From Diphasiastrum complanatum (taxonomy: Eukaryota > Streptophyta > Lycopodiopsida > Lycopodiales > Lycopodiaceae): a DNA stretch of 64,000 nucleotides. Within the stretch, counting starts at the first letter, position 1; every line of letters starts with the position of its first letter. The notes beneath the pieces are model-generated. The model was not told the origin of the DNA and did not search any database. It saw only the letters and a list, made by a program, of their open reading frames with translations. The position numbers were made by a program, and so were the translations under genes. The DNA lies in contig CM055115.1 of the NCBI GenBank assembly GCA_029204225.1, positions 9,231,466 to 9,295,465 of the forward strand. Reading direction: 5' to 3'. Below are positions 5,436 to 48,140 of this stretch, piece after piece.

Positions 5436-7394
5436 TTGCAGCGGAGAAAGTGTTCGGAGTATGCCAAAAGTGCAGGTCATTATTTTCAACTTCTCACATC
5501 ATTGTTGGCCTCGAGATACTGTTTTTATCCTATGGCAGAAATTTTAAGCAGTTTTGCGATGGCAAACATGGGAGAGGCCATTTTGAGTGAAAGTAGCAAA
5601 TTGGACGGGATTTCTAAATATGCAGTGTGGAAATTCAAAATGAAAAACATGTTGATGGAGAAAGACGTGTGGGAAGTCATCACAGGTGATGAGAGAAGGC
5701 CGCCAAATGAAGCTGATATCAAAGTGTTCGACAAAAAGATGAGGAAAGCTTTGACCTTCATTAACTTGTCAGTGAAGGATCACATCATTACCCACATTTG
5801 TGATGCTGTGACACCCAGACAGGCATGGGATGTGCTAAAGGAGCAGTTTGAGATGTCAAATCCGTCAAGAATCATGTTTCTGAAGTCAAAGTTGAATAGT
5901 GCCCGCATGGAGCAAGGAGAGAACATTCAGATGTACAAGATCAGAATCAAGACAATGAGAGATGAACTGCATTCTATTGGTGAGCGCATACGTGACGTGG
6001 AGCTGGTGCACAATGCATTGTGTGGCATTGCAGAACCCTATCAGATGTTTGTGAGCGGAATAGCATCAACAGAAAGATTGCCAACCTTTGACGAGCTCAC
6101 GGAAATCTTGATGCAGGAAGAGCAACGACGAGAAATGGTGAAAGCTAGACGTCAAAATACTGACGATCAGGCACTTGCGACACGCCAAAAACAAGGCAAG
6201 GGCAAGGGCAAGAAGAAATCTAAGCAACAATTTGCCAAGTCTCAAGAGGACGAGGGATCTTCCAGTAAAACTAAGAAGAAAGGCAAGTGCTTCCATTGTG
6301 GTAAAAAGGGCCATTGGAAGAGTGAATGTCGCAAATTCCTGGCGGTACAAGTCAAGGGGAAACCAAAACAAGCATGTAACCTTGTCGATGAGGGTGAGAT
6401 TGAAGACTCTAGCATCTTCATATCTGCATTGTCATCTAATCAAGATGATCAAGCATGGTATATTGACTTGGGAGCCACAAGACACATGACAGGTAACAAG
6501 AATTGGTTCAGTAGTTTGAAGATGTCGGATAATGGAACATCTGTTTCACAAGCAAATGGTGAGGTGTGCAAGATCAAGGGAATAGGCACCGTTTCAATCC
6601 AACTACTTGATGGCAAAAGCAGGATGATCAGGGAGGTACTTTACGTATCAGGTGTGAAGAAAAATCTACTTTCTGTTGGAGTCATTACTGATCAAAAGTT
6701 GAAAGTGGAATTCGCCCATGATCGTTGCTTTGTGAGGGATGTGAACCAAAAGTTCAAAGTTATTGCGGATGGAGTAAGAGAGCCCAATACAAAATTGTAC
6801 AGGTTGAATGCTACAATTAAGGGGCAACACGAACTTGTATCGTCCATTCCATCGCAAACTGAGTTGTGGCATAAGAGGCTTGGTCACTTGAACTTGGGAA
6901 GCCTCAGTTTGATGAGAAAATTGGAGATGGTAACAGGATTGCCTACCATAGAAGATCACTTGAAATCGATATGCGAATCCTGTGTATATGGGAAGCAGCA
7001 TCGAGAGAAGTCCAATAAAGGGGGTGTTGCAAGAGCAAAGAACATTTTGGATTTAATCCACACAGATTTATGTGGGACTATGAGGACCATGTCCTTAGGT
7101 AAAGCCTTCTATTTCATGACCTTTATTGATGATATGTCACGTAAGACGTGGATCTACTTCTTGAAGAAGAAATCAGATGCATTTGATAACTTCAAGAGCT
7201 TCAAAGCATTGGTCGAAAATCAGACAGGTAGGAAGATCAAAGTTCTAAGATCAGATAGTGTCCCAAATTTTCATATTCAAACTTTAATAGATTTTTGGAA
7301 GGAGCACATTAAAACAATTCATCTACATTTGGAGGACTTGCTTAATCTGAGGATGAGGACATGTGATAAAAAGAATGAGCTTAGAATAGGTTAA
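5436..7394 (+). CDS. Copia family B gag-pol, 5' half, chimeric 3' end
   Basis: This 652-codon open frame encodes the first half of a Ty1/copia polyprotein. In order: a gag/UBN2 domain (about residues 45-250, with KLDGISKYAVWKFKM near its start); a basic K/R-rich linker; a CCHC zinc knuckle CFHCGKKGHWKSEC at about 285; an aspartic protease with WYIDLGATRHMT at about 341 (DLGA in place of the usual DSGA); a GAG-pre-integrase (LWHKRLGHLNLGSL); and the start of the integrase core (first catalytic Asp in IHTDLCG, about 543). Translation could start at residue 1 or at Met33. Copia identity ends at about 7255, residue 607; the last 45 residues are read through unrelated segment-Z sequence. The RT and RNase H of this family are found only at 52040-49769 on the other strand. 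Confidence 0.9.
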   Translation: MQRRKCSEYAKSAGHYFQLLTSLLASRYCFYPMAEILSSFAMANMGEAILSESSKLDGISKYAVWKFKMKNMLMEKDVWEVITGDERRPPNEADIKVFDKKMRKALTFINLSVKDHIITHICDAVTPRQAWDVLKEQFEMSNPSRIMFLKSKLNSARMEQGENIQMYKIRIKTMRDELHSIGERIRDVELVHNALCGIAEPYQMFVSGIASTERLPTFDELTEILMQEEQRREMVKARRQNTDDQALATRQKQGKGKGKKKSKQQFAKSQEDEGSSSKTKKKGKCFHCGKKGHWKSECRKFLAVQVKGKPKQACNLVDEGEIEDSSIFISALSSNQDDQAWYIDLGATRHMTGNKNWFSSLKMSDNGTSVSQANGEVCKIKGIGTVSIQLLDGKSRMIREVLYVSGVKKNLLSVGVITDQKLKVEFAHDRCFVRDVNQKFKVIADGVREPNTKLYRLNATIKGQHELVSSIPSQTELWHKRLGHLNLGSLSLMRKLEMVTGLPTIEDHLKSICESCVYGKQHREKSNKGGVARAKNILDLIHTDLCGTMRTMSLGKAFYFMTFIDDMSRKTWIYFLKKKSDAFDNFKSFKALVENQTGRKIKVLRSDSVPNFHIQTLIDFWKEHIKTIHLHLEDLLNLRMRTCDKKNELRIG

Positions 7395-8094
7395 GTGTAT
7401 TTCGATACCAGGTCAAAGATCAAATTGATCCATGGTCGATTTTCATTTCGACCTAGAGTCCATATGCTATTATGATCCTTTTCAAAAGTGGTTATGGAAC
7501 TTAAGATGACTATTTCATATTTAGAACAACTACTAGGCTATATAAAGAGCATTTGTTCTCGCATATTTCTTTGAAATGGAATGATGTGAAGTTAGTGAGT
7601 TAGTCTATTTTCATTCTCAATTCACTGATAGTTATTACTATCGCTTAGACTAATATCCACCTGGATTTCCAAGGGAAAGCCAGTCCTATCATGGACAAGC
7701 TTGATGGAGCCAATCACCATCTACAGAAATTTAAGATGAGAACTGTGCTAATGGCTAAGAAATTTTATGACGTTGTTATAGGTGTAGAGGTAAGAAACGA
7801 AGCTGACAATGCTGCAATCTCTCGATGGAAGCTGAAGGATGGCAAAGCCTTTGTGCTGATCATCCTCAATATATCAGACACTCAAATCAGCCATGTGTAT
7901 GAAGCTCATATCTCCAAGGAATTCCGGGACATCTTGAGCACTCTGTACGATGTGCGCGACGTAGCTTCCAAGCTACATCTAAGAAAGAACATTTTCTCCC
8001 TCAAGATGACCAACGAAGATTCCTACAGAATCACATCAACCAGTTCAAGAACCTGCTAAAGCAAATGGCCACTTTTGGATTTGTCATAGATGAT
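7256..8094 (+). pseudogene. Segment Z, family A LTR and truncated gag
   Basis: The outermost unit of the left arm mirrors 47840-47005. It starts abruptly inside the copia B ORF. It holds a short piece of segment Z, a family A LTR with TATA (about 7545) and a gag starting MDKLDGANHHLQKFKMRT at 7691. The gag keeps UBN2-like sequence (ISKEFRDILSTLYDV), then shifts frame near 8020 and is cut at 8094 by the internal region of the non-autonomous element. The right arm has gag, protease and pre-integrase running on for another kilobase here. Confidence 0.82.
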
Positions 8095-10316
8095 TTTGAG
8101 CTCCCTGAGATCCAGATTTGATCAATTCCGCACATGTATCAAGGCTCCCTGAGCCAAAGGATTTATCGTTTGATTGACCACTTTATGGTCCACTCCATGC
8201 CTTGTTGCTTCTGCACCTTGATTTCTCTCCTTGTCCCAGCCTGATCTTGATACATTTCCTTCTTGGCTCTTTAAGGTAGGCAAAGATTGAGTACTCCGCA
8301 ATGCACCTCTCACTTAGCTTGAAGTAGCTCTTTGAATAAGCCCAAATGTAACCATTGACCTCATGGAAAGCCAAAGGGTCGCACCAGTTTGATCCGCATA
8401 CGAACTACCTCTTCGCGTTTTGTTTGAAGCACCATGTCCATCACACAAAACATGACTTCACAATTCCATCACTGGTCAGTTGCCTCACAGTCAAAACAAG
8501 AAGTGTACATCGAGCTTGGCTTCAAGTAGCTCTCTTTGGATCAAACACATGCACCCAGAGTTTGCACTAGTCCGATCTCAATATGAATTGTCCCTTAGCG
8601 TTCGTTCGAAATACCAAGTCTCTCATGCAAGACTCAACTTTCACAGTTCCTTCATTGATCAGCTGCCTTACACGTGACACAAGCCATTGTACTCATATTT
8701 TTCTCATCATTGCTGGTCCAGAGAAAGCCTATAACAAGCTTTCCTTTCCACAACAAAAACTTGTCAACTTATTAGGTCCAAAGTTCGCCATTCTTCTCGT
8801 TTGAGTATGGCTAGGTCACCTTGAATTTGCCCCCGTTTTGATCAACTTTCATTCAAAATTTGCCCCAGGAGAGAGGTGTGTGTGATAGTTCCCCTCCACT
8901 TATAAAATTAGCTGATCGGACTTAGAGTATAGTTCTTCGGACAAAAAGCCTTTCCAACACTTTGCTTCCCATCTTCTAGGATTATGGCTCGATCCAACTT
9001 GTTGCCAATTTCTGAAGAGGATCCTAGTCTTTCCCCTTTAAGGAAAAACCCAACTGATACTAGATATCACCCATGCTCAGTGAGTTTCAGTTCCCAAGGT
9101 GGCCGTCCCAAAATGAAGACCAACTACTCCATGGAAGATCTCCCCTGAAATTGCCCTTTCCAACTTTTGACTTCCTGCTTGCATCTGGTAGGCGTTGTCG
9201 CAAATGAAACTAACCCAAGAAATAGGCTAGCCATCCATCCTTTACAAATATTGAGTCATTTCGTTGTCGTTCACGTGCGAGTACTTGAACTGCAAATCCG
9301 CCCAACAGATTTTGTAGTCCTCTTCGTTTGATGGTATCAGCCTTCAAAAGAAAGGTTCCTTCTCGAGCCATCAGCTCCTTGTATCACAAGCAATCATGCA
9401 AACCAGGCCAAGCATGAGTACTAAGACTCACCACGAATACATACAAGTAAGACACTCAGGCAGGTTTACTAACAAGTAACAAAGACAAGGTCCCCCTTTG
9501 AGATGGTCCTGCCAACGGACCTTTGCCTGGTCGTGCCCATACAAATCGATCACAGAATCAGCCCACATAGGACACCCCTCCAACTATCCGTGCTTTCACC
9601 ATTAAGCAGCACATTGCCTCAGTCACACCCCACCACTTTTTGGTTGATAGCCCTTATAGCTAAACGATCGGCAGCATACCCCCAAATCGTGGACGCACCC
9701 GTGTTTTCACCGTTAGGCAGCACATTTTCTCAGTAACGCCCCCACCAAATTTGGTCGATAGCCCTTCTAGCTAAACGAACGGCAGCTATCCTTGAATATA
9801 CCACCCCCGTGGACGCACCTGTGCTTTCACCGTTAGGCAACACATTGCCTCAGTAACGCCCCCACCAAATCTAGTTGATAGCCCTTATAGCTAAACGATC
9901 GGCAGCATACCACCCAAATTGTGGATGCACCCGTGCTTTCACTGTTAGGCAGCACATTGCCTTAGTAACGCCCCCACCAAATTTGGTCGATAGCCCATAT
10001 AGCTAAACGAAGGGTGGCTATCGCGAATATGTCACCTCGCACCCCACAAGGCACAGACCGTGCTTACACCAACCTAATGGCAGCACATTGCCTCATCTGT
10101 CCTATGTGCAAACGGCGCCGGGCCCGAACCACGGAAATTGACCGTGCTTACACCTCAAGGGCAGCACCTTGACTCATCAACCCCCGTTCTGCCGACCACC
10201 CCGACTATGGACGCACCCGTGCTTACACTGTGGGCAGCATCTTGCACAACAGTTGTCTTGATGAACCCCAAACAGTGGCCATTTCCTTGAGATCCACATA
10301 GTTGACCGACCAGTCG
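8095..10316 (-). mobile_element. Internal region of non-autonomous LTR element, left arm
   Basis: This is the inverted counterpart of 42993-40791. No gag, protease, RT or integrase similarity is visible and no ORF exceeds about 75 codons in the non-repeat part, so the element appears non-autonomous. It is truncated: the outer 0.4 kb, the polypurine tract and the 3' LTR present in the right arm are missing, and copia A gag is joined at 8094. The leader tandem array occupies 9591-10240. Confidence 0.78.
9591..10240. repeat. Alternating 111/120-base tandem array (left)
   Basis: Units anchored on the plus-strand string tgctttcac (or close variants) start at 9591, 9702, 9822, 9934 and 10061, spacings 111, 120, 112 and 127. 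Shorter decayed units follow at 10144 and 10220. Two alternating unit types differ in the part after 'gctaaacga': one has 'tcggcagcatacc', the other 'acggcagctatcc' plus about eight extra bases. The basic repeat is therefore a dimer of about 231 bases. It lies in the element's 5' leader, just inside the PBS. Confidence 0.85.
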
Positions 10317-10328
10317 GCTCTGATACCA
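10317..10328 (-). other. Primer-binding site of non-autonomous element (left)
   Basis: The plus strand reads gctctgatacca, i.e. TGGTATCAGAGC on the minus strand, two bases from the LTR end at 10331. It mirrors the site at 40779-40790. Confidence 0.85.
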
Positions 10329-10330
10329 CA

Positions 10331-11506
10331 TGTAGCGCAGGCATCCCAAAGGGAGCCGGGAACCACGACTTAGCTTCCTAGCCTTCAACTCTTGCCATCC
10401 AAACCCACTTGACATACAAGCAGCCAACTCGCCAACAACGATTAGACTTAACCAACTTGAAGTTCCGAAAACCAACATTGAGATCCAACCTGGCGCCATG
10501 CCAGATCGGGGGTCCCGATGTGGGTGACTTCCCTCCAAGCAAGCCGCCCGACATACATCAAACTTAACCAACTCGAAGCTTTGTTACAAACGAGTAACAT
10601 CCATTCCAAGCAAGCGGTCTCCAATTGAAAGCTTCGTCACGAGTGCTAGAAGCCAACCTGGCGCCACGCCAGACTGGACAGCCATAAACAGGTTACTTCC
10701 ACCCAAGCAAGCCATCCAACTTAGCCGACAGCTTAGAGCCCGTTCCCCAAGAGCTTAACCCATTCACATTCATGCAAGGAACACTCAGAACCACAAGCCA
10801 CGAAAGATATGGAGACAACCAGTTCCTGGACCAAATGGTCCCGACAGCATACCGCTAGCACCACGGACCGAATGGTCCCGACGACATACCGCTAGCGTCC
10901 CGGGATACGACCCTCAGCTATGTGCCAACTTAAAAATTTTGAAGCTGCCTTACAACTGGCGCTTTTACCGAACACTGAAACCCAGAAGGTAATCAGAGTC
11001 AGTTTGATGAAAATCCTACTTTATTGATAAATCTAAGAAGGTTACATTTCAAGTGTGTGACCGACCCTAGTCTCCGGGGAGCGGGCATGCCAAGGCGAGT
11101 GCCAGGACAACATTCCAGCAAGGGAGGCTGAGACTTGGTTGGAGCTCGCCCTGAGTCGCAACCCGCACTCCCTCTCATACCAAGCACTCTACCCAGGCTG
11201 GTAAAGCACATTTTTCTCTCTCTAGAAAGTCATTTTCTCTCTCTAGATTTTATTGATCTCCAGGCTTCCTTTAATCATGCCTAGATCGTGTGAGGTGATT
11301 GCACATCGATCTGAGCTCTTTGGACTTCACTAGAACCGATCAAAGATTTTCAGCCATAGGAACTTGGCGCCGGTTGGATTCTGGTCACAGTGGCGCTGGG
11401 AGCGGTGCCAGCACCATTGGCACCGGGAGCAGCAGCAGCTGGCGCCAGGGACGATGCTGGCGCCAGTGGCGCCGGAAGTAAAGCTTGTAAAGGTAGCTTT
11501 ACAACA
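10331..11506 (-). mobile_element. LTR of non-autonomous element (left arm)
   Basis: This 1176-base LTR mirrors 40776-39630. On the minus strand it starts TGTTGTAAAGC (at 11506) and ends GCGCTACA (10331). It is followed at 11507-11511 by gatag, the complement of the CTATC target copy seen in the right arm. Near its 5' end (11367-11475 on plus) it carries a cluster of GGCGCC palindromes. ORFs of 60-138 codons across it lie in an LTR and differ between copies, so they are unlikely to be genes. Confidence 0.85.
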
Positions 11507-11511
11507 GATAG

Positions 11512-12520
11512 TCGTGATGTAGCTCCTCACCCTGCCCATTTCCCATCTGTGAAGGAGAGGCCATCACTGTGCTCATCCCTCAGCCTATTCCCGCTCCCTC
11601 CTCCGATCTGCCTGCATGCCATCAGATTCGTTTCTTTCCCTCTTGCGACCTCCCTCACCTAACCGCAACCCTGCTCCGACAGACCTTCTTCTCCTCTTGT
11701 TGCCTGGCTGCGTGGTTTCCTTGCTTGTCTGGCTCGCTCTCCCTCTGGCCACGTTAGCCTGCCTGGCCGCGTGGTTTCCCTGCTGCCGCGATCCTGCCTG
11801 CGGTTCCTAACCTACCTAGCCCTGCTTATACTTCATCGCTGTCGTGGTTGCTCCGTGCCCTACGGCTCCTAATTCCTATAACCAAGAATCAATGCCTCTG
11901 AGGTATAAGAAGTGTATTGTGGAGGGAACCCAAGTTCAAATGCCAACTATTGTTATTTGTGATTATAGCATTGGAGACTTGAAAGCCTAACTTCTGTTAT
12001 TGAGATGGACCGACCTTCTACTATGAGACTCATTTGTAGTGTGAGAATGTTTGACTGTTTCGTCTAGTCAAGCCAAACCTGAAGCCTTGCACTCCCTTGA
12101 AGATGTTTATGTATGGGTTTGGTGTTTAGGTCACTAATATCCAAGAAAAGCTATTCATCCAAGTGCTATATTTATGAACCATGGACACGAATTTGCTCAT
12201 ATGCTATTTAAGCATCTATCAATCTGTATAGCCTTTGAATGTGAGTGCCCTAGCAAGTGATATACTCCTCATCACCTATTGTTGTCCGACTCTTGAGCCT
12301 ATGAGCCCATTACAATGGCTATTCATCTTTTTGTTGAGCAATGCTGAATCTCTAAGCAAATGAAGAATAGAGTTGTGCTCTTCTAAACCATTTTTAGACT
12401 CTTGCTCATAAGTCGACTCCATAACCCAATGGAGCTTGAGCTATAATTGTGGTATAGAACGACTTCCGTTAGCAATTTCCTTAGATTGGCAGTCTATTTG
12501 GGGGTCGTTTTATAATCTTT
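11512..12520. other. Non-coding target flank of the non-autonomous element
   Basis: About 1 kb between the LTR and the copia A pol. The first 300 bases are C/T-rich on plus; the rest is ordinary mixed sequence. Copies lie at 15452-16440 and 39624-38600. I see no domain; the short ORFs (60-90 codons) are low-complexity Pro/Leu/Ser-rich or not conserved between copies. It is probably older intergenic or decayed LTR sequence into which the element inserted. Confidence 0.6.
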
Positions 12521-14112
12521 CATGTACTTTATCAAGAAGAAGTCAAAAGCTTTCAATTGTTTCAGAATCTTCAAGGAGCATGCAAAGAAAGAAATTGGCA
12601 GACAAATCAAAGCCCTGAGGTCCAATAATGGTGGAGAGTACATCTCTACTAAATTCAAGGAGTATTCCTAGAGCCAAGGCATTGAACAACAATTTATCAC
12701 TCCTTATTTGCCTCAATCTAATGGCTTAGCCGAGAGGAAGAATCGTACCCTGGTCGAGGCAGCCAAATGTATGCTGGCACATGAATTTTTGTCGAAGAGC
12801 TTCTGGGTTGAAGCTCTCCCCACTACAGCCGATGTTCAAAACAAATGTTCGACTAAGGCCCTCGTATGCAAAACACCACATGAGGTTTGGACAGGTTCTA
12901 AGGCTTCAATGAAGAACCTTCGAGTGTTCGGATGCATCACCTATGCGCAGATCCCAAAGGAGACGAGGAAGAAATTCAACTTCCAAGGTCTCAAGACCAT
13001 CCTTATTGGATACACTTCATCTGACCAAGCTATACGATTTTATTCAGTAGGGATACAGTCTTTATCGAGGATCAGTTTGACGATTTCAAAGGCAAATGCA
13101 AAGTTCCATGCAAACCTTTGATGCCTCTGCCTCCGATACGACAATTCGAGTCTCGGGCTCAAGTGTGCCTATAGTCGATGGACTACCCGACAACGAGTCA
13201 GATGAAGAAGTTGTTGTTACTCAGCAACAACAAATCCAAGGATTGGCAGCCAACGGCACCTCCTCCAAGAAGATCAAACCGAGTGCACACACAGCCCACA
13301 GAGTACATTCCTGAGTTTTGGCATGTCTTTTAATACATGAGCCGACTACCGTCGAAGAGGCACTTAGACAACCAGACTTTAATGTTTGGAGAGAAGCGAT
13401 GAACATAGAATATTCCTCTCTGATCAAGAACCAGACATGGTCACTAGTCGAAGCTCCCTCTGGCAACAATCTTATCGATTGCAAATGGGTCTTTAACATC
13501 AAGTACAATGCCAATGGAGCTATGATCGAAGGAAGGCTCGACTAGTAGCACGAGCATTCGCTCAGATCCCCAACATTGACTAAAATGAGACTTTCAGTCC
13601 AGTAGTCAAGCATTCATTGATACGAGCCCTCCTATCATATGTTGCAGCAGCCGACCTTGAAGTACATCACCTCGATGTATAGACAACTTATTTGAACATA
13701 ATCATCGAAAAAGACATCTATATGCTCCAGCTTGAAGGATACGTTCACGAAGGTATGAAGCATCATGTCTACAAGCTCCACAAAGCACTTTATGGCTGAT
13801 TCTAATGTCTACTTCAAGTTAATGCAGTAATCTTTTATAATTATCACCTCGTATGTCGATGATACGTTGCTTTTCAACAATAGTACCAATCTGGTGAAGG
13901 ATGCTAAAAAGATGCTGTCTTCCGAACTTGACAGGACCGATCTGGGCAAAGCTCACTTATGTTTGGGCATTCAACACAGCGAGAAGGCTGATCTTTATCA
14001 CTCAGCAACAGTATCTTCACAATACCCTTATCAGATACAATTTGATCAATTGTAAACTAGCTCACTCACCAATGGATTCAGGCTTGCGATTAACGAAGGG
14101 CCAATGCCAATA
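12521..14112 (+). pseudogene. Copia family A integrase-RT remnant, unit 1
   Basis: The plus strand encodes the integrase core (YFIKKKSKAFNCF, LRSNNGGEY, QSNGLAERKNRT, KTPHEVWTG; open at 12708-13121), a linker, and a reverse transcriptase (DCKWVFN at about 13480; ALYG at about 13785; YVDD at 13852-13863, followed by TLLF). A nonsense codon in KEYS*SQGIEQ is shared with unit 2 and the right arm. The second integrase Asp is Asn. RT has several stops and a shift, and RNase H is missing: RT runs straight into the LTR at about 14113. It mirrors 38600-37020. Confidence 0.88.
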
Positions 14113-14245
14113 AGTGGTTATGGAAGTTAAGACGGTTATTTCATATTTAGAACATCTACGAGGGAGCATTTGTTCTCGCATATTTCTTTGAAATGGAATG
14201 AAGTGAAGTTAGTGAGTTAGTCTATTCTCATTTTATTGATGTGAA
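14113..14245 (+). mobile_element. Copia family A 3' LTR, TATA deleted
   Basis: This LTR copy lacks about ten bases holding the TATA: it reads ctacgagg then gagcatttg, whereas unit 2 (18060) and 3811 keep ggctatataaagagcatttg. The same deletion is present in the right-arm counterpart near 36970. 14246-14800 is the family's 3' flank, with no gene visible. Confidence 0.75.
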
Positions 14246-14805
14246 TGATTTACTCTCTCTATGCTATTTTCAAGATTATACTTATGAAGTTTTGCTCATA
14301 TAGTAGAACCTCATTATTCTTATTTAAGTGATCATTATTCAATGCATTGAATGCTTGTCTGATGCGAGGGGAAGTAATGCTTGTTACCATAATTAGAATA
14401 CAGTGACAAGTCTGAAATCGTAGTACATACATAAACGATGAATGGCATGTAGTTCCAACTTCTATAATTCCATTATCCAAATTTCATAAAAGCAAATCAC
14501 AAATTGTTATAACGTCTATTAGTCTGCAACGTGTAAACAACCTAAAAGTGAAATCCTAAATTCTTCATAGTAAAGCAGGAGGAGATAGGGCTGAATCATG
14601 ATACCTAAAGGCCAACTAGTGATGTCTAGCATAGCCTCCTCCTAGTCACCCATGATGTAGTGTAGGCTCTAGCTGAAGACCCTCATCCTCACCTTGTTGA
14701 CATATTTGCTTTTCTTTGAAAGACAAATAGCACTTTGGCATGCGGTGCAACTTGAAAATGCGATGCATAGTCCGACATATCTAAATAAATAACGAGTACC
14801 CCATA

Positions 14806-15446
14806 GCGTCCCGGGATACGACCCTCAGCTATGTGCCAACTTAAAAATTTTGAAGCGGCCTTACAACTGGCGCTTTTACCGAACACTGAAACCCAGAAGG
14901 TAATCAGAGTCAGTTTGATGAAAATCCTACTTTATTGATAAATCTAAGAAGGTTACATTTCAAGTGTGTGACCGACCCTAGTCTCCGGGGAGCGGGCATG
15001 CCAAGGCGAGTGCCAGGACAACATTCTAGCAAGGGAGGCTGAGACTTGGTTGGAGCTCGCCTTGAGTCGCAACCCGCACTCCCCTATAGTATTAGTGGTA
15101 TCCGGCACCCCCTTTCATACCAAGCACTCTACCCAGGCTGGTAAAGCACGTTTTTCTCTCTCTAGAAAGTCATTTTCTCTCTCTAGATTTTATTGATCCC
15201 CAGGCTTCCTTTAATCATGCCTAGATCGTGTGAGGTGATTGCACATCGATCTGAGCTCTTTGGACTTCGCTAGAACCAATCAAAGATTTTTAGCCATAGG
15301 AACTTGGCGCCGGTTGGATTCTGGTCACAGTGGCGCTGGGAGCGGCGCCAACACCATTGGCACCGGGAGCAGCAGCAGCTGGCGCCAGGGACGATGCTGG
15401 CGCCAGTGGCGCCGGAAGTAAAGCTTGCAAAGGTAGCTTTACAACA
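14806..15446 (-). mobile_element. Partial LTR of non-autonomous element, unit 2
   Basis: This is the LTR 5' portion repeated by the tandem duplication, cut at 14806. It keeps a block of about 34 bases (near 15083, containing ctatagtattagtgg) that is absent from 10331-11506 and from 39630-40776 but present in the right-arm 3' LTR near 43720. It therefore keeps what looks like the older LTR state. Confidence 0.75.

Positions 15447-36085: not shown

Positions 36086-36118
<33 letters not shown>
36086..36118 (-). repeat. (CT)n microsatellite, right arm
   Basis: About 16 CT units, the mirror of the GA run at 18940-18964, which has about 12. It lies in the presumed 5' leader of the broken BYPASS1-like copy. 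Confidence 0.85.
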
Positions 36119-36121
<3 letters not shown>

Positions 36122-36151
36122 CAAGTGTGTGGTGTTCTCTCTATCGATCTC

Positions 36152-36159
36152 TATTTATA
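36152..36159 (-). promoter_or_regulatory. Intact TATA element of broken BYPASS1-like copy
   Basis: On minus the sequence is TATAAATA followed by GAGATCG. It is the mirror of TATCAATA at 18899-18906. It lies about 376 bases upstream of the ATG at 35776, so this promoter may still drive transcription of the truncated gene. Confidence 0.6.
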
Positions 36160-36359
36160 TGCTATTTGGACACCTTCAAAACCCTAGTCGTTACATAATA
36201 TGTAGTACCCTAGAACGTGACTAAATGCATATTGGACCCCTAAGAGGGCTAAAACTTGGGACCAAAAAACACTTTGGATACCAACCCAAAAAAGTGATCC
36301 AAGGGAGTTGCCTGAAATATGACTAGGTAATAGAATGCTATGGTTAACCTCGGTACTCG

Positions 36360-37020
36360 TTATTTATTTAGATATGTCGGACTATGCATCGCATTTTCAA
36401 GTTGCACCGCATGCCAAAGTGCTATTTGTCTTTCAAAGAAAAGCAAATATGTCCACAAGGTGAGGATGAGGGTCTTCAGCTAGAGCCTACACTACATCAT
36501 GGGTGACTAGGAGGAGGCTATGCTAGACATCACTAGTTGGCCTTTAGGTATCATGATTCAGCCCTATCTCCTTAGGCTTTACTATGAAGAATTTAGGATT
36601 TCACTTTTAGGTTGTTTACACGTTGCAGACAATTTGTGATTTGCTTTTATGAAATTTGGATAATGGAATTATAGAAGTTGGAACTACATGCCATTCATCG
36701 TTTATGTATGTACTACGATTTCAGACTTGTCACTGTATTCTAATTATGGTAACAAGCATTACTTCCCCTCGCATCAGACAAGCATTCATTGCATTGAATA
36801 ATGATCACTTAAATAAGAATAATGAGATTCTACTATATGAGCAAAACTTCATAAGTATAATCTTGAAAATAGCATAGAGAGAGTAAATCATTCACATCAA
36901 TAAAATGAGAATAGACTAACTCACTAACTTCACTTCATTCCATTTCAAAGAAATATGCGAGAACAAATGCTCCCTCGTAGATGTTCTAAATATGAAATAA
37001 CCGTCTTAACTTCCATAACC
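36360..37020 (-). mobile_element. Copia family A 3' flank and LTR, right arm
   Basis: It mirrors 14800-14113 (or unit 2). The LTR part (about 36890-37020) lacks the TATA, as unit 1 does. Diagnostic bases elsewhere match unit 1 at some sites and unit 2 at others. Confidence 0.72.
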
Positions 37021-38600
37021 ACTTCTTGGCATTGGCCCTTCGATAATCGCAAGCCTGAATCCATTGGTGAGTGAGCTAGTTTACAATTGATCAAATTGTA
37101 TCTGATAAGGGTATTGTGAAGATACCGTTGCTGAGTGATAAAGATCAGCCTTCTCGCTGTGTTGAATGCCCAAACAGAAGTGAGCTTTGCCCAAATCGGT
37201 CCTGTCAAGTTCGGAAGACAGCATCTTTTTAGCATCCTTCACCAGATTGGTACTATTGTTGAAAAGCAACGTATCATCGACATACGAGGTGATAATTATA
37301 AAAGATTATTGCATTAACTTGAAGTAGACATTAGAATCAGCCATAAAGTGCTTTGTGGAGTTTGTAGACATGATGCTTCATACCTTCGTGAACGTATCCT
37401 TCAAGCTGGAGCATGTAGATGTCTTTTTCGATGATTATGTTCAAATAAGCTGTCTATACATCGAGTTGATGTACTTCAAGGTCGGCTGCTGCAACATATG
37501 ATAGGAGGGCTCGTATCAATGAATGCTTGACTACTAGACTGAAAGTCTCATTTTAGTCAATGTTGGGGATCTGAGCGAATGCTCGTGCTACTAGTCGAGC
37601 CTTCCTTCGATCATAGCTCCATTGGCATTGTACTTGATGTTAAAGACCCATTTGCAATCAATAAGATTGTTGCCAAAGGGAGCTTCGACTAGTGACCATG
37701 TCTGGTTCTTGATCAGATAGGAATACTCTATGTTCATCGCTTCTCTCCAAACATTAAAGTCTGGTTGTCTAAGTGCCTCTTCGACGGTAGTCGGCTCATG
37801 TATTAAAAGACATGCCAAAACTCAGGAATGTACTCTGTGGGCTGTGTGCGCACTCGGTTTGATCTTCTTGGAGGAGGTGCCGTTGGCTGCCAATCCTTGG
37901 ATTTGTTGTTGCTGAGTAACAACAACTTCTTTGTCTGACTCATTGTCGGGTAGTCCATCGACTATAGGCACACTTGAGCCCGAGACTCGAATTGTCGTAT
38001 CGGAGGCAGAGGCATCAAAGGTTTGCATGGAACTTTGCATTTTCCTTTGAAATCGTCAAACTGATCCTCGATAAAGACTGTATCCCTACTGAATAAAATC
38101 GTATAGCTTGGTCAGATGAAGTGTATCCAATAAGGATGGTCTTGAGACCTTGGAAGTTGAATTTCTTCCTCGTCTCCTTTGGGATCTGCGCATAGGTGAT
38201 GCATCCGAACACTCGAAGGTTCTTCATTGAAGCCTTAGAACCTGTCCAAACCTCATGTGGTGTTTTGCCTACGAGGGCCTTAGTCGAACATTTGTTTTGA
38301 ACATCAGCTGTAGTGGGGAGAGCTTCAACCCAGAAGCTCTTCGACAAAGATTCATGTGCCAGCATACATTTGGCTGCCTCGACCAGGGTACGATTCTTCC
38401 TCTCGACTAAGCCATTAGATTGAGGCAAATAAGGAGTGATAAATTGTTGTTCAATGCCTTGGCTCTAGGAATACTCCTTGAACTTAGTAGAGATGTACTC
38501 TCCACCATTATTGGACCTCAGGGCTTTGATTTGTCTGCCAATTTCTTTCTTTGTATGCTCCTTGAAGATTCTGAAACAATTGAAAGCTTTTGACTTCTTC
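37021..38600 (-). pseudogene. Copia family A integrase-RT remnant, right arm
   Basis: On minus: the integrase core (open 38428-38015, QSNGLVERKNRT, KTPHEVWTG), a linker, RT start (DCKWVFN, near 37640), and YVDD followed by TLLF near 37283. It shares the nonsense codon near 38470 and the Asn in LRSNNGGEY with the left copies. RNase H is missing. It mirrors 14112-12521. Confidence 0.88.
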
Positions 38601-39629
38601 TTGATAAAGTACATGAAAGATTATAAAACGACCCCCAAATAGACTGCCAATCTAAGGAAATTGCTAACGGAAGTCGTTCTATACCACAATTATAGCTCAA
38701 GCTCCATTGGGTTATGGAGTCGACTTATGAGCAAGAGTCTAAGAATGGTTTAGAAGAGCACAACTCTATTCTTCATTTGCTTAGAGATTCAGCATTGCTC
38801 AACAAAAAGATGAATAGCCATTGTAATGGGCTCATAGGCTCAAGAGTCGGACAACAATAGGTGATGAGGAGTATATCACTTGCTAGGGCACTCACATTCA
38901 AAGTCTATACCGCTTGACATATGCTTAAATAGCATATGAGCAAATTCGTGTCCATGGCTCATAAATATAGCACTTGGATGAATAGCTTTTCTTGGATATT
39001 AGTGACCTAAACACCAAACCCATACATAAACATCTTCAAGGGAGTGCAAGACTTCAGGTTTGGCTTGACTAGACGAAACAGTCAAACATTCTCACACTAC
39101 AAATGAGTCTCATAGTAGAAGGTCGGTCCATCTCAATAACAGAAGTTAGGCTTTCAAGTCTCCAATGCTATAATCACAAATAACAATAGTTGGCATTTGA
39201 ACCTGGGTTCCCTCCACAATACACTTCTTATACCTCAGAGGCATTGATTCTTGGTTATAGGAATTAGGAGCCGTAGGGCACGGAGCAACCACGACAGCGA
39301 TGAAGTATAAGCAGGGCTAGGTAGGTTAGGAACCGGAGGCAGGATCGCAGCAGCAGGGAAACCACGCGGCCAGGCAGGTTAACGTGGCCAGAGGGAGAGC
39401 GAGCCAAACAAGCAAGGAAACCACGCAGCCAGGCAGCAAGAGGAGAAGAAGGTCTACTGGAGCAGGGTTGCGGTTAGGTGAGGGAGGTTGCAAGAGGGAA
39501 AGAAACGAATCTGATGGCATGTAGGCAGATCGGAGGAGGGAGCGGGAATAGGCTGAGGGATGAGCACAGTGATGGCCTCTCCTTCACAGATGGGAAATGG
39601 GCAGGGTGAGGAGTTACATCACGGCTATC
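38601..39629. other. Non-coding target flank, right arm
   Basis: It mirrors 12520-11507 and ends in CTATC (39625-39629), the left target copy of the non-autonomous element. No gene is supported. Confidence 0.6.
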
Positions 39630-40776
39630 TGTTGTAAAGCTACCTTTACAAGCTTTACTTCCGGCGCTGCTGGCGCCAGCATCATCCTTGGCGCCAGCAG
39701 CGCCCCTGCTGCTACTGGCGCCAAGTTCCTATGGCTGAAAATCTTTGATCGGTTCTAGCGAAGTCCAGAGAGCTCAGATCGATGTGCAATCACCTCACAC
39801 GATCTAGGCATGATTAAAGGAAGCCTGGGGATCAATAAAATCTAGAGAGAGAAAATGACTTTCTAAAGAGAGAAAAACGTGCTTTACCAACCTAGGTAGA
39901 GTGCTTGGTTTGAGGGGGGGGTGCGGGTTGCGACTCAGGGCGAGCTCCAACCAAGTCTCAGCCTCCCTTGCTGGAATGTTGTCCTGGCACTCGCCTTGGC
40001 ATGCTAGCCCCTTGGAGACTAGGGTCGGTCACACACTTGAAATGTAACCTTCTTAGATTTATCAATAAAGTAGGATTTTCCTCAAACTGACTCTGATTAC
40101 CTTCTGGGTTTCAGTGTTCGGTAAAAGCGCCAATTGTAAGGCCGCTTCAAAATTTTTAAGTTGGCACATAGCTGAGGGTCGTATCCCGGGACGCCAGCGG
40201 TATGCCGTCGGGACCATTCGGTCCATGGCGCTAGCGGTATGCTGTCGGGACCATTTGGTCCAGGAACTGGTTTTCTCCATATCTGTCGCGGCTTGTGGTT
40301 CTGAGTGTTCCTTGCATGAATTCGAATGGGTTAAGCTCTTGGGGAACGGGCTCTAACCTGTCGGCTAAGTTGGATGGCTTGCTTGGGTGAAAGTTACCTG
40401 TTTATGGCTGTCCAGTCTGGCGTGGCGCCAGGTTGGCTTTCAGCACTCGTGACGAAGCTTTCAATTGGTTAAGTCTGATGTAAGTCAGACCGCTTGCTTG
40501 GAATGGATGTTACTCGTTTGTAACAAAGCTTCGAGTTGGTTAAGTTTGATGTATGTCGGGTGGCTTGCTTGGAGGGAAGTCACCCACATCGGGACCCCCG
40601 ATCTGGCATGGCGCCAGGTTGGATCTCAATGTTGGTTTTCGGAACTTCAAGTTGGTTAAGTCTAATCGTTGTTGGCGAGTTGGCTGCTTGTATGTCAAGT
40701 GGGTTTGGATGGCAAGAGTTGAAGGCAAGGAAGCTAAGTCGTGGTTCCCGGCTCCCTTTGGGATGCCTGCGCTACA
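39630..40776 (+). repeat. 5' LTR of non-autonomous element
   Basis: 1147 bases. It is shorter in the GGCGCC cluster (39660-39722) than the 3' LTR, and it lacks the block of about 34 bases near 39910 that the 3' LTR has near 43720. Frames of 62-125 codons between 40465 and 40930 run across the LTR and PBS and are not conserved in the 3' LTR. Confidence 0.88.
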
Positions 40777-40778
40777 TG

Positions 40779-40790
40779 TGGTATCAGAGC
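40779..40790 (+). other. Primer-binding site, initiator tRNA-Met type
   Basis: TGGTATCAGAGC two bases after the 5' LTR end at 40776. Confidence 0.9.
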
Positions 40791-40879
40791 TGACTGGTCG
40801 GTCAGCTACGTGGATCTCAAGGAAATGGCCACTGTTTGGGGTTCATCAAGACAACTGTTGTGCAAGGTGCTGCCCACAG

Positions 40880-41530
40880 TGTAAGCACGGGTGCGTCCAC
40901 AGTCGGGGTGGTCGGCAGAACGGGGGTTGATGAGTCAAGGTGCTGCCCTTGAGGTGTAAGCACGGTCAATTTCCGTGGTTCGGGCCCGACGCCGTTTGCA
41001 CATAGGACAGATGAGGCAATGTGATGCCATTAGGTTGGTGTAAGCACGGTCTGTGCCTTGTGGGGTGCGAGGTGACATATTCGCGATAGCCACCCTTCGT
41101 TTAGCTATATGGGCTATCGACCAAATTTGGTGGGGGCGTTACTAAGGCAATGTGCTGCCTAACAGTGAAAGCACGGGTGCATCCACAATTTGGGTGGTAT
41201 GCTGCCGATCGTTTAGCTATAAGGGCTATCAACTAGATTTAGTGGGGGCGTTACTGAGGCAATGTGTTGCCTAACGGTGAAAGCACAGGTGCGTCCACGG
41301 GGGTGGTATATTCAAGGATAGCTGCCATTCGTTTAGCTAGAAGGGCTATCGACCAAATTTGGTGGGGGCGTTACTGAGGAAATGTGCTGCCTAACGGTGA
41401 AAACACGGGTGCGTCCACGATTTGGGGGTATGCTGCCGATCGTTTAGATATAAGGGCTATCAACCAAAAAGTGGTGGGGTGTGACTGAGGCAATGTGCTG
41501 CTTAATGGTGAAAGCACGGATAGTTGGAGG
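40880..41530. repeat. Alternating tandem array (right)
   Basis: Mirror of 10240-9591, with the same number and order of units; anchors read gtgaaagca or gtaagca on plus. The two unit types alternate as in the left arm. Confidence 0.85.
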
Positions 41531-43353
41531 GGTGTCCTATGTGGGCTGATTCTGTGATCGATTTGTATGGGCACGGCCAGGCAAAGGTCCGTTGGCAGGA
41601 CCATCTCAAAGGGGGACCTTGTCTTTGTTACTTGTTAGTAAACCTACCTGAGTGTCTTACTTGTATGTATTCGTGGTGAGTCTTAGTACTCGTGCTTTGC
41701 CTGGTTTGCATGATTGCTTGTGATACAAGGAACTGATGGCTCGAGAAGGAACCTTTCTTTTGAAGGCTGATACCATCAAACGAAGAGGACTACAAAATCT
41801 GTGGGGCGGATTTGCAGTTCAAGTACTCGCACGTGAACGGCAACGAAATGACTCAATGTTTGTAAAGGATGGATGGCTAACCTATTTCTTGGGTTAGTTT
41901 CATTTGCGACAACGCCTACCAGACGCAAGCAGGAAGTCAAAAGTTGGAAAGGGCAATTTCAGGGGAGATCTTCCATGGAGTAGTTGGTCTTCATTTTGGG
42001 ACGGCCACCTTCGGAGCTGAAACTCACTGAGCATGGGTGATATCCAGTATCAGTTGGGTTTTTCCTTAAAGGGGAAAGACTAGGATCCTCTTCAGAAATT
42101 GGCAACAAGTTAGATCGAGCCATAATCCTAGCAGATGGGAAGCAAAGTGTTGGAAAGGCTTTTTGTCCGAAGAACTCTACTCTAAGTCCGATCAGCTAAT
42201 TTTATAAGTGGAGGGGAACTGTCACACACACCTCTCTCCTGGGGCAAATTTTGAATGAAAGTTGATCAGAATGGGGGCAAATTCAAGGTGACCTAGCCAT
42301 ACTCACACGAGAAGAATGGCGAACTTTGGACCTAATAAGTTGACAAGTTTTTGTTGTGGAAGGAAAGCTTGTTATAGGCTTTCTTTGGACCAGCAATGAT
42401 GAGAAAAATATGAGTACAATGGCTTGTGTCACGTGTAAGGCAGCTGATCAATGAAGGAACTGTGAAAGTTGAGTCTTGCATGAGAGACTTGGTATTTCGA
42501 ACGAACGCTAAGGGATAGTTCGTATTGAGATCGGACTAGTGCAAACTCTGGGTGCATGTGTTTGATTCAAAGAGAACTACTTGAAGCCAAGCTCGATGTA
42601 CACTTCTTGTTTTGACTGTGAGGCAACTGACCAGTGATGGAATTGTGAAAGTCAAGTTTTGCGTGATGGACATGGTGCTTCAAACAAAACGCGAAGAGAT
42701 AGTTCGTATGCGGATCAAACTGGTGCGACCCTTTGGCTTTCCACGAGGTCAATGGTTACATTTGGGCTGATTCAAAGAGCTACTTCAACCTAAGTGAGAG
42801 GTGCATTGTGGAGTACTCAATCTTTGCCTACCTTAAAGAGCCAAGAAGGAAATGTATCAAGATCAGGCTGGGACAAGGAGAGAAATCAAGGTGCAGAAGC
42901 AACAAGGCATGGAGTGGACCATAAAGTGGGCAATCAAATGATAAATCCTTTGGCTCAAGGAGCCTTGCGGAACTGATCAAATCTGGATCTTAGGGAGCTC
43001 AACACAAAGTGCATCAAGGACAAATCAGGAGCTCAAAGGAGTTCCAAAGTCGAAAGTCAGAAGCGACAGGGGTGAACATTTCAAAGAAAGGCCTCTGTCA
43101 CCAGTTAATAAGGTTCTTGGATTTTACGAAAGCGATATAAAATCTCGCTTTTCTCAGACAAAGAGATATTTTAAGTTATGTAATTTTTCAGTACAAAGAT
43201 CTGAGCCTCCAACTTGTGGTGTGCCAGCTTCAATGTTAATAAAAAGGGGCCAGTAGATTGAGTACTGTGCCAAGTAGCTTAGATGTATAGTTACTTTTAA
43301 TTGGGAGACACCTTTACTTTAATCTGACATCGGATGAGGACATCAGATTTTAT

Positions 43354-43367
43354 AAAGGTGGGGTGGA
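43354..43367 (+). other. Polypurine tract of non-autonomous element
   Basis: AAAGGTGGGGTGGA directly before the 3' LTR start TGTTGTAAAGC at 43368. This end of the element is missing from the left arm. Confidence 0.85.
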
Positions 43368-44388
43368 TGTTGTAAAGCTACCTTTACAAACTTTACTTCC
43401 GGCGCCACTGGCGCCAGCATTGTCCCCGGCGCCAGCAGCGCCCCTACTGCTCCCAGCCCACGTTGGCGCCGCTCCCAGCGCCACTGTGACCAGAATCCAG
43501 CCGGCGCCAAGTTCCTATGGCTGAAAATCTTTGATCAGTTCTAGCGAAGTCCAGAGACCTCAGATCGATGTGCAATCACCTCACACGATCTAGGCATGAT
43601 TAAAGGAAGCCTGGGGATCAATAAAATATATAGAGAGAAAATTACTCTCTAGAGAGAGAAAAATGTGCTTTACCAGCTTGGGTAGAGTGCTTGGTATGAG
43701 GGGGGGTGCCAAATCCCACCAATACTATAGGGGAGTGCGGGTTGCGACTTAGGGCGAGCTCCAAGCAAGTCTCAGCCTCTCTTGCTAGAATGTTGTCCTG
43801 GCACTCGCCTTGGCATGCGAGCTCCCCAAAGACTAGGGTTGGTCACACACTTGAAATGTAACCTTCTCAGATTTATCAATAAAGTGGGATTTTTCTCAAA
43901 CTGACTTTGATTACCTTCTGGGTTTCAATATTCGGTAAAAGCGCCAGTTGTAAGGCCGCTTCAAAATTTTTAAATTGGCACATAGCTGAGGGTCGTATCC
44001 CGGGACGTCGGCGGTATGCCGTTGGGACCATTTGGTCCGTGGTGCCAGCGGTATGCTGTCGGGACAAAGCTTTCAGTTGGTTAAGTCTGATGTAAGTCAG
44101 ACCGCTTGCCTGGATTGGATGTTACTCGTTTGTAACGAAGCTTCGAGTTGGTTAAGTTTGATGTATGTCGGGTGGCTTGCTTGGAGGGAAGTCACCCACA
44201 TCGGGACCCTCGATCTGGCATGGCACCAGGCTGGATCTCAATGTTGGTTTTCGGAACTTCAAGTTGGTTAAGTCTGATCGTTGTTGGCGCGTTGGCTACT
44301 TGTATGTAAAGTGGGTTTGGATGGCAAGAGTTGAAGGCTGAGAAGCTAAGTCGTGGTTCCCGGCTTCCTTTGGGATGCCTGCGCTACA
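43368..44388 (+). repeat. 3' LTR of non-autonomous element
   Basis: 1021 bases, starting TGTTGTAAAGC and ending GCGCTACA, with CTATC after it. It carries the longer GGCGCC cluster (43399-43508). It is about 125 bases shorter than the 5' LTR overall because of a deletion of about 220 bases near 44065. Confidence 0.88.
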
Positions 44389-44393
44389 CTATC

Positions 44394-45930
44394 TAACGAG
44401 CCACAACATAGACAGGGAGAAGGAACCAGCCACAGCAGGGCAACGATGAAGAGATGGAAGAGCAGAAAGTGGCTCAGTAACACATCGTTGTCTTCAAAGA
44501 CTGATACTCTCACAATATGTAGGCCATCTTCAAAAGGCACATGAAAGCGATGCATTGAATGCATTCACCATTGGCAGGAAGGAAAGAAGTACCTCTATAG
44601 ACTGCAAGATAGATTCCAGAAGAATGATGGGTTTCAAGTAACTAGATTCTTCATTCCTTGAAAAGAAACTGCACACAGTTGGCCTCTAGAGGCATTAACA
44701 AGCAGAGCTCTTTCAAACATTCAGGCCCTCAGGGCTCTATGCCTGTGTGTTTTTTTTTCTTAAGGGTAAACAAGATAGGGAAATATCCAATGATTTTGAC
44801 AGGCAGAAAAATGGCCTCAAGCAAAACTAGAGATATGTACTCTGCTTTTTGACAGGCCCTCAGGGTATTGGATCCCAAACCAATCAATAACTTCTCAGAA
44901 AACTAGCAATGAATAGGCTCTGTTCATTGGGCTTCCCTCAAAACTACTGACAAAGCTTTGAAAGCCTTAGTGATCAACAATAAACAAGGCAATGACTGCC
45001 TTCTTGGATAACAAACAATCTTTAAATAAGTCACAGAACCTTGTGAATGTAACAACAAGGCTTTCCACAATTGCAAGCTCTACAGAGACAAGATTAATGA
45101 CAACAATCCCAGTGCAATCTACACCCTTCCAAGATCTGCAACCAAATGTTAGAGATGGCAGAAAAAAAAATTCACAAATCCACAAACAGTGGTAACACAA
45201 TGCTAAAGGATGAAAAACAGATCAATAGCAATGAAAGTGAATAGAATTTAGAGTAAAGATCCAACAAAGAAATTACAGTGGAAGGCACCAGGCAGATCAG
45301 CCTCTTCTCCTTTCCTCCTCCTTGTCTATGTGGATTGAGCACAAATAGGAAGTGGAAGAGATGCGAGACACCAAGCACAACAACTTCTACTCCTTCCCTT
45401 TCTCTCCAAGCTTCACTCTCTCTCTCTCCAAGAAGATGACAATGAACAATGGTATGTTGTCCCACACGCCTCCCTATACGTAGGGGCTCAATGGGCTGGA
45501 GGTGCACCCCTTCAAGAAATGGGGCACCTCCTTATGACTTTTCAAAAACTAACTCTAAAAATAGGGCACTGGCCCAAATTCCATTTTTAGCACCTAGCTT
45601 GGCCTCAACTTGCAATTTCAAAGTCAAGTTGGGTCCTATTTATGATTTCAGTTTTTATGGGCTCACGGCCAAGTTTTTAATTACTAGTACTACGAAAATA
45701 CTTGGCACCTCCTAGTCCCTACAAACCCGAAAACTAGGGGCATAGGCCGCATAAATGACATTTTCATACAACGTAAATTAACAAATGAATAGTATTTTAG
45801 TAGCAGTGCAACTGGCCATTATGGGCCATTTATGCGTCATTTTTAGGCAGTTCTGCGTCAACGTAATAGCGCACGGCGACGATTTTTCGTCGAAAATAGT
45901 TTGAAAAAGAGGTCTTTTTCCCCACAAACA
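44394..45930. other. Unassigned region between element and copia A
   Basis: No domain is recognised. Short direct echoes of 'aggccctcaggg' occur at about 44724 and 44853. A CT-rich stretch (45380-45440) and frames of 67-111 codons on both strands are seen, but none has a convincing composition. It may be a decayed element. It has no counterpart in the left arm. Confidence 0.4.
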
Positions 45931-47404
45931 GTACACCAAGCAATCCACTAGAAACATGTTGATGGCTTGATCTAAATGGTTTCATGGCCAGTTTACAGAC
46001 TAGACACTCTTGACAAGTAGATAATTTGACTTTCCTATCTGGATAGTCAAGATCAACAACAATAGATTGTTTAGACATTTGTTGTACAAAAGAATAATTT
46101 AGGTGACAAAGTCTATAATGCCAAAGTAAACTGTTATTTCTTTGAATAGAAGTACTAAGAGCATGACTAGAGGTAGAACAACAATGACTTAATCTATACA
46201 AGTATCCATGTCTCTTTCCGAGTGCTAGGATCCTGTCTTCCTTATCAACTACTTTACACTCATCAGATTCAAATTCTATTTTATGTCCTAGATCTGTAAT
46301 TCTGCTAACAAAGAGCGAATTTGTAGATAGATTCGGTAGATGCACTACATTTCAAAGTAGCTTAGATTGATCATTTGCAAAGTTCGATCTTACTGTACCT
46401 TCACCTTTGATAGCCTGTGTGCTATTGTTGCCTAGGTGAACATATCGTTTGGTATTGGAAGGCGTATAGGACTCAAAATAGCCAATATGGCTAGTCATGT
46501 GTTGTGTGGCTCCAGAGTTTAGAAACCAGGAGCTGTCGTTGGATGTTCTTTGATGGCTAGTCATTAAGGCATCATTATCCGATTCTTGAATCGACTGTGG
46601 TGCTTCTGTACCTGCATATGCCACTTGTTTCGACTGCCCCTTGTTGTTGTTCTTTTCTTGTAGTATGCGACAATCTTGGATCTTGTGGTTGGTTCACCAA
46701 AATATGTGTAGAATAGCTAATTTTTGTCGGCTAGTTTGACTGCTCTTGACGCTGTGTCGGTTCATGATTTAGCTTTGGTTGCTTTGGGCCTTTCTTCTTT
46801 TGCTTAGTTGAGCCTTTGTTGGTGTATAAGACATGAGAGTCGACACTTGAGGAACCAGAGACTTTGTTCCTTCTGCTCTCTTCCTAAAACAACATTGTCA
46901 TGACTCTTGAAAGAGTCAATTCAGGGTGTGTCAAGATGATCATCACCCAGCTGTCGTATGAGCTTGGAAAGCTTGAAAATAGTGTCATTACTACATCTTG
47001 ATCATCTATGACAAATCCAAAAGTGGCCATTTGCTATAGCAGGTTCTTGAACTGGTTGATGTGATTCTGTAGGGAATCTTCGTTGGTCATCTTGAGGGAG
47101 AAAATGTTCTTTCTTAGATGTAGCTTGGAAGCTACGTCGCGCACATCGTACAGAGTGCTCAAGATGTCCCAGAATTCCTTGGAGATATGAGCTTCATACA
47201 CATGGCTGATTTGAGTGTCTGATATATTGAAGATGATCAGCACAAAGGCTTTGCCATCCTTCAGCTTCCATCGAGAGATTGCAGCATCGTCAGCTTTGTT
47301 TCTTACCTCTACACCTATAACAACGTCATAAAATTCCTTAGCCATTAGCACAGTTCTCATCTTAAATTTCTATAGATGGTGATTGGCTCCATCAAGCTTG
47401 TCCA
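45931..47404 (-). pseudogene. Copia family A gag-protease-pre-integrase
   Basis: Read downward from 47404: gag from MDKLDGANHH near 47404 with an open stretch 47360-47034 (MRTVLMAKEFYDVV, ILSTLYDVRDV); a gag C-part; protease WFLNSGATQHMT near 46530 (open 46624-46352, Asn at the catalytic Asp position); GAG-pre-integrase (LWHYRLCHLNYSFVQQ, open 46345-45830) including CQECLVCKLAMKPF. It is cut near 45930 before the integrase core. The left arm keeps only the part beyond 47004. Confidence 0.88.
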
Positions 47405-47700
47405 TGATAGGACTGGCTTTCCCTTGGAAATCCAGGTGGATATTAGTCTAAGCGATAGTAATAACTATCAGTGAATTGAGAATGAAAATAGACTAACTCA
47501 CTAACTTCACTTCATTCCATTTCAAAGAAATATGCGAGAACAAATGCTCTTTATATAGCCTAGTAGTTGTTCTAAATATGAAATAGTCATCTTAAGTTCC
47601 ATAACCACTTTTGAAAAGGATCATAATAACATATGGACTCTAGGTCGAAATGAAAATCGACCATGGATCGATTTGATCTTTGACCTGGTATCGGAATACA
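47405..47700 (-). mobile_element. Copia family A LTR and leader, right arm
   Basis: Mirror of 7690-7410. A TATA (plus-strand tttatatagc, near 47550) points leftward, toward the gag at 47404, which agrees with a 5' LTR on the minus strand. Confidence 0.75.
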
Positions 47701-48140
47701 CTTAACCTATTCTAAGCTCATTCTTTTTATCACATGTCCTCATCCTCAGATTAAGAAAGTCCTCCAAATCTAGATGAATTGTTGTAATGTGCTCCTTCCA
47801 AAAATCTATTAAAGTTTGAATATGAAAATTTGGGACTGCGCAAATGGACACAACATCGTTGTTGTAATCTATACAAAAATTTGCACTCGACGTTGAAAAA
47901 GAAATGACCAGTCTCTATTGTTGCATCGATCATTAATTGTTTTTATGGGGTACATCTTTGCTTGTCACTGTCCTAGCTGCTTCAGTTTGTATGTGAACAA
48001 AGTTATAACATGAATTGCATCAGAACAATCACTTGATGCAGCAGAACTTTTCTTCTTGAGGGTACATCTTTTTCGTAAGTGACCAGTACTCGAGTCTTCC
48101 ATATAACAGTTGCACATTATATAAGGTTTTGGCTATAAAT
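47701..48140. repeat. Segment Z, right copy
   Basis: Inverted counterpart of 3560-3126, with good identity. The left arm keeps only its inner part (7256-7400). No coding function is seen. Confidence 0.7.

Follow-up and report, generated by a model that had tools for sequence, protein, structure and literature searches.

A gene-bearing palindrome of about 40 kb in Diphasiastrum complanatum, very probably one joint in a segmental-duplication cluster of a ROH1-like gene

Introduction

When a large palindrome carries a gene in both of its arms, is it held together by gene conversion between the arms, as in sex chromosomes, or did it arise and persist in some other way? An earlier note on a stretch of the genome of the lycopod Diphasiastrum complanatum had described such a structure and had pointed to sex chromosomes and amplicons as the places where its like is best known. 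The window analysed here is that whole stretch of 64,000 nucleotides, C24:9231466-9295465, where C24 is contig CM055115.1 of an assembly of 1,744,706,496 bases (1.74 Gb) in 5,176 contigs. We describe the palindrome, the family of duplications that surrounds it, the joint at which it folds, and the fate of its arms in a second copy. The earlier interpretation is supported in part: the structure stands, and its proposed upkeep by conversion does not.

Results

The palindrome and its gene

Self-comparison of the window by BLAST and alignment of the arms place the left arm at 7260-25481 on the forward strand and the right arm at 29576-47836 on the reverse strand, the latter including 4.0 kb (43003-47000) missing in the left arm. 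Three inverted matches, 7260-8094 with 47836-47001, 8096-11371 with 43002-39717, and 15378-25481 with 39698-29576, are about 96.6-98.2% identical with gaps counted, and when the window was shuffled in two-base blocks, none of five such controls contained an inverted match at E<=0.01. The mirror-image stretch is therefore confirmed as truly present in this assembly, much as it had been described: a palindrome of about 40 kb with a gene in both arms, arms of about 18 kb, nested insertions common to both, a 4-kb length difference and an extra tandem copy on the left.

The gene in question lies at 19273-20217 (forward strand) in the left arm, open within a stop-to-stop frame of 318 aa (19261-20217). 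Its protein matches Pfam model PF05633 with an E-value of 4.9e-8 and 32.9 bits against a curated cut-off of 21.5, through its C-terminal part only (profile positions 239-382 of 384); relative P0001 scores 37.9 bits against the same model. The left-arm protein is 66% identical to a 310-aa relative, and the PDB yielded no useful relative. A score above the curated cut-off places the gene in the ROH1-like family of plant BYPASS1/ROH1 proteins. The right-arm copy (34841-35788, reverse strand) is interrupted by stops and lacks 9 bases. The gene's 3' end, with downstream sequence, is partly repeated at 23567-24745 (forward strand), where 989 bp are missing at a junction that is not GT-AG; this repeat has a right-arm counterpart at 30449-31480 (reverse strand). 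A spliced retrocopy was considered for 23567-24609 and ruled out; because the gap lacks GT-AG borders and homology runs past it, this segment is a partial DNA duplicate. Both arms also hold an open frame of 223 aa (21379-22050 and 33031-33702) without a Pfam match.

The arms differ by 270 substitutions in 14,160 aligned columns, or 1.9%, with substitution identity of about 0.95-1.00 per 500 aligned bases, and by two large length differences, one of 4.0 kb and one of 3.9 kb. Transitions account for 184 of the 270 substitutions, with 51 at CG, 66 at CHG and 67 at other C/G positions. Since the left arm offers 970 CG and 1,041 CHG positions against about 5,640 others, changes between the arms are enriched at positions that plants methylate, and the region may itself be methylated.

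Most of the 4.0-kb stretch (43003-47000, reverse strand) missing on the left is found again, within a match of 44059-47836, in a duplication unit elsewhere on the contig, C24:8497409-8501203. The left arm in turn carries a tandem pair, 11162-14800 (found in the left arm only) and 15102-18706, both on the forward strand. That the left arm underwent a late tandem duplication was considered and ruled out, since the two copies are 0.017 apart, about as far as either is from the right arm. A 112-bp tandem repeat at 9588-10022 (forward strand) has its counterpart at 41097-41519, and a truncated Ty1/copia-type element with a gag-to-integrase frame (5436-7391, forward strand) crosses the left arm's outer edge at 7260.

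A cluster built of divergent gene pairs

The palindrome is not a lone structure, as a search of the assembly showed. Searching with relative P0001 returned at least 129 matches, 122 of them at 58% identity or more; as 128 of 318 candidates were scored, these counts are lower bounds. Pieces merged into loci give at least 112 ROH1-like loci: 53 on C10, 47 on C24, four on C20, three each on C2 and C4, plus those on two small contigs. Seven matches were dropped from this count, including intact-looking distant relatives on C3 (52%), C11 (42%) and C17 (33%). On C10, 49 of the 53 loci fall at 0.28-6.24 Mb, and the 47 on C24 span 8.41-9.61 Mb.

In the 200 kb at C24:8.42-8.62 Mb, hereafter the array, direct units recur about 37.5 and 42 kb apart (spacings of 37.5-42.7 kb), together with inverted units. 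Among neighbouring loci on C24, strand switches occur in 31 of 46 cases, a number reached by a fraction of 0.019 of shuffles; on C10 below 2.1 Mb the corresponding figures are 19 of 35 and 0.43, and because C10 shows no excess, alternation of orientation is not general. Of the neighbour pairs on C24, 16 are divergent and 15 convergent, and in 15 both loci point the same way. The distance within divergent pairs is 13.3-22.0 kb (median 20.0), with 12 at 15-24 kb. Twelve of the 16 combine one locus with a 306-aa frame and one of another type, a count that none of 10,000 strand shuffles reached; the 306-aa type, the older relative, shows about 94% identity along a segment of 2 kb. The building block on C24 is thus shown to be an older divergent gene pair, with its members about 20 kb apart.

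Blocks longer than 1 kb that recur with at least 90% identity and consist of more than a transposon alone identify the whole as a segmental-duplication, or ampliconic, gene cluster, a known kind of structure that is here megabase-scale and recently multiplied. Our literature search, of limited reach, found no paper on this cluster.

Several neighbouring observations deserve record. An 18-kb inverted pair at 99.6% identity joins C24:8527950-8545889 with C24:8602058-8620000, the first stopping some 300 bases short of a stretch of exactly 10,000 N (C24:8546198-8556197); because of this stretch, the order across the cluster is partly scaffolded. C4:44336393-44345120 and C24:9181191-9189918 have equal spacing (7,117 bp) and equal gene identity to the window, and represent either a recent interchromosomal duplication or a misplaced piece. 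C2:16262275-16339053 and C10:6204056-6238020 each contain three family fragments, with identical scores. No telomere repeat occurs in the 200 bp at either end of C24.

The fold junction and the outer edges

Comparison of the window with the array locates the fold junction at 25479-25481, where left-arm sequence meets the interior of a copia-type element. Sequence left of the joint reads like the right arm; to its right lies the interior of a copia element that is intact in array units; and the two parental arrangements overlap at the joint by just 2 bp, AT. Since only these 2 bp are shared, the joint is unlike the product of recombination between long homologous stretches, and a fold made by recombination between two copia copies, also considered, is ruled out on the same ground. 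The joint fits end joining or template switching, either of which may have made it.

The centre of the palindrome (25482-29575, reverse strand) had been called unrelated to the arms. Its 4.1-kb size holds, but the description does not: in direct array units at C24:8.43-8.52 Mb this sequence adjoins right-arm sequence, which makes it an extension of the right-hand unit. At the left outer edge, 7260 marks a junction of greater age that recurs in two of the array units read, and the right flank past 47836 continues as it does in other copies. The outer edges are therefore differences between older units and not traces of the event that formed the palindrome.

Replicates of the palindrome

A probe of 1,001 bases across the inner end of the left arm matched in full at four places on C24, namely the window, 8762670 (+), 8839509 (+) and 9619463 (-), when the best 40 of 9,392 candidates were scored; the fifth best was already partial. 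The three other copies of the junction are 99.75, 99.80 and 99.95% identical to the window over 3.9-4.0 kb, and the one at 9.62 Mb diverges from the window at 23615. The window's palindrome is thus one of four copies of its junction, amid the 47 gene loci of the contig. The copy in C24:8742001-8790000 aligns with window positions 4361 to 46839, left flank included, at 99.4-99.65% identity, an LTR insert excepted; it has the same left tandem pair and lacks the same 4 kb. The two palindromes differ at 92 of 39,514 positions (0.23%), a figure that, like the conversion counts below, rests on this one other palindrome, read nearly whole. The insert, in the second palindrome's right arm, is a young LTR element of 5,492 bp (C24:8768324-8773815) with identical 654-bp ends and a 4-bp flanking repeat. 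Separately, the arm's inner end occurs twice in a second kind of convergent pair, 9.4 kb apart (C24:9306910+ with 9316305-, and 9542463+ with 9551893-), which is probably another re-copied palindrome.

These replicates bear on whether the palindrome was made by the assembler, through joining haplotypes or repeat copies head to head. Arms 1.9% apart would suit two haplotypes; C24, at 10.87 Mb, stands apart both from C1-C23 (42.5-101.6 Mb in the 10 of 23 sampled) and from C25 (0.386 Mb); and the cluster contains the 10,000-N join and has identical fragments on different contigs. The window itself, however, contains no N, a junction identical to the base is present four times, its copies bearing private mutations and one of them the extra LTR insertion, and inverted and direct units are both common nearby. 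The divergence of the arms and the private history of each junction bear out the earlier argument against a simple assembly mirror, and we regard an artefact as quite unlikely.

The same spread of copies might be put down to one very large mobile element, which would account for those on C2, C4, C10, C20 and C24 and for near-identical pieces on different contigs, such as those at C4:44343510 and C24:9188308. Against such an element, the extents and edges of the units read on C24 vary, with direct spacings of 37.5-42.7 kb and unlike outer edges on the two arms, and the units read, of which those read at length are all on C24, share no ends with target-site repeats. We find this explanation highly improbable.

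Arm-to-arm conversion

Because the palindrome exists in replicate, conversion between its arms can be counted directly. Divergence between arms (1.9%) is about eight times that between copies (0.23%). At a rate of 7e-9 per site per year, which may not be this plant's, separation times would come to about 1.4 million years for the arms and about 0.17 million years for the copies, figures to which we attach no evidential weight. Of 12,181 columns aligned across the four arms, 198 keep one arm difference in both palindromes, 27 vary in the window alone, 29 in the other copy alone and one is of another kind; the signature of conversion, both arms of one copy changed together, appears in none of the 12,181 columns for the window and this one other copy.

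Trees tell the same story. For segments A (11 copies) and E (10 copies), those present in both palindromes on both sides, a bootstrap value of 100% unites each window arm with its counterpart on that side of the second copy; both arms fall, in tree E, in one unresolved fork with another unit. In tree B (7 copies) the left-arm pairing alone is visible, the second copy's right arm being absent because of its LTR insert. Six of the sites that vary only in the window cluster at 22938-23183, where the window's left arm alone differs. At two positions there, 23006 and 23067, the second copy's left arm has the right-arm state and the window's left arm has that of the array units, which would allow for one short conversion tract within 22938-23183.

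The gene copies follow the arms. Right-arm copies contain stops in all four palindromes (two in the window, one TGA in each of the others), and left-arm copies are open in all three cases among the matches listed, the left arm of the 9.62-Mb copy not being among them. Arms that pair by copy, 198 differences retained, a conversion count of zero and broken right-arm genes together indicate that arm-to-arm conversion is not maintaining the palindrome; in the two copies compared it is absent or rare. The claim that conversion keeps the arms alike accordingly fails, with all 198 of 198 two-state sites keeping their arm state.

A palindrome of the sex-chromosome type, whose arms are kept alike by conversion so as to protect a gene, might have been expected from a size and form resembling willow W.P1 and from a host gene in both arms. 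Arms that are 1.9% apart against 0.23% between copies, the lack of conversion-signature columns, and a gene broken in four of four right arms and open in three of three left arms among the copies listed all argue against it. The palindrome does not behave like that type, since its arms are not kept alike. We give the sex-type explanation next to no credence, and nothing observed calls for sex linkage.

Family-wide, 35 of 55 full-length loci in one piece have no internal stop. A codon alignment of 14 stop-free copies, the window's left copy and 13 others, three of those short by 1-4 bases at their ends, has 87 variable sites, divided 29, 30 and 28 by codon position, and a pooled pairwise pN/pS of 0.66. 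Within the palindrome, the arms' coding sequence has 9 differences in 942 positions, a rate half that of the arms as a whole (1.9%). Judged by these patterns, changes in the coding sequence look close to neutral, with constraint slight or absent; the pN/pS of 0.66, the 9 differences in 942 positions and the 35 of 55 stop-free loci nevertheless make some constraint on the gene possible.

Discussion

We conclude that the palindrome is very probably one joint in a segmental-duplication cluster of a ROH1-like gene, with the following history. An older inverted duplication produced a block in which two gene copies diverge from each other at a distance of about 20 kb, the arrangement seen on C24. 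Such blocks then multiplied on C24 and C10, where they occur in both orientations. Two units that had already diverged were joined head-on at 2 bp of microhomology; the joint itself is observed, and end joining or replication template switching may have made it. Larger duplications then carried the finished palindrome to three or more other sites on C24, those where its junction recurs. Its arms retain their old differences, with conversion absent or rare, as the two copies compared show, and the gene would be for the most part a passenger, constrained slightly if at all, a part of the scenario that the coding patterns support and do not prove.

A bolder version would make the C24 cluster an amplifier of inverted dimers, in which a divergent gene pair increases its number through head-on joining again and again, and palindromes keep being made and re-copied and then diverge free of conversion; C24 might even be a small extra chromosome. 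We think this rather unlikely and prefer the more modest history of a single joint within the duplication cluster.

That history gives the locus a use beyond its own interest. It serves as a natural control on the view that conversion between arms is what lets palindromes persist. It also advises that a gene-bearing palindrome met in a single window be compared with the whole genome before anyone appeals to a sex chromosome. In its series of divergent dimers, moreover, C24 preserves a readable record of how an inverted amplicon grows in a plant.

Among known systems, plant segmental duplications provide the closest description: blocks longer than 1 kb at more than 90% identity, mixed orientation, abundant transposons, broken genes and copies on several chromosomes. 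C24 departs from ordinary plant clusters in its regular divergent dimers, about 20 kb apart, and in having duplicated a complete palindrome three or more times. The EPSPS cassette of Amaranthus palmeri is reportedly another case of a plant gene massively amplified with its surrounding repeats, and the present cluster resembles it in having multiplied a gene along with flanking repeats; its copies, in contrast, look nearly neutral and have no known selection agent.

Ampliconic palindromes of the mammalian X and Y are also large, gene-bearing inverted repeats with a short spacer in multicopy regions. According to the published account, their arms exceed 99% identity by conversion, the primate X likewise (PMC8981503); no such maintenance by conversion was found here. 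By size, the nearest plant case in the literature available to us is that of the willow W palindromes. In the report on Salix purpurea, W.P1 measures 42.7 kb, with a 2.6-kb spacer and arms of about 20 kb, and W.P1 and W.P2 together have four 20-kb arms that are more than 99% alike, with signs of gene conversion in part of these arms, within a sex-determination region (PMC7023750). The willow palindromes share with ours a similar size, genes in both arms, retrotransposons inside and several inverted arms. The Diphasiastrum palindrome differs from them in having arms 1.9% apart, differences kept in duplicate, and a place in a cluster of 47 loci without a known link to sex.
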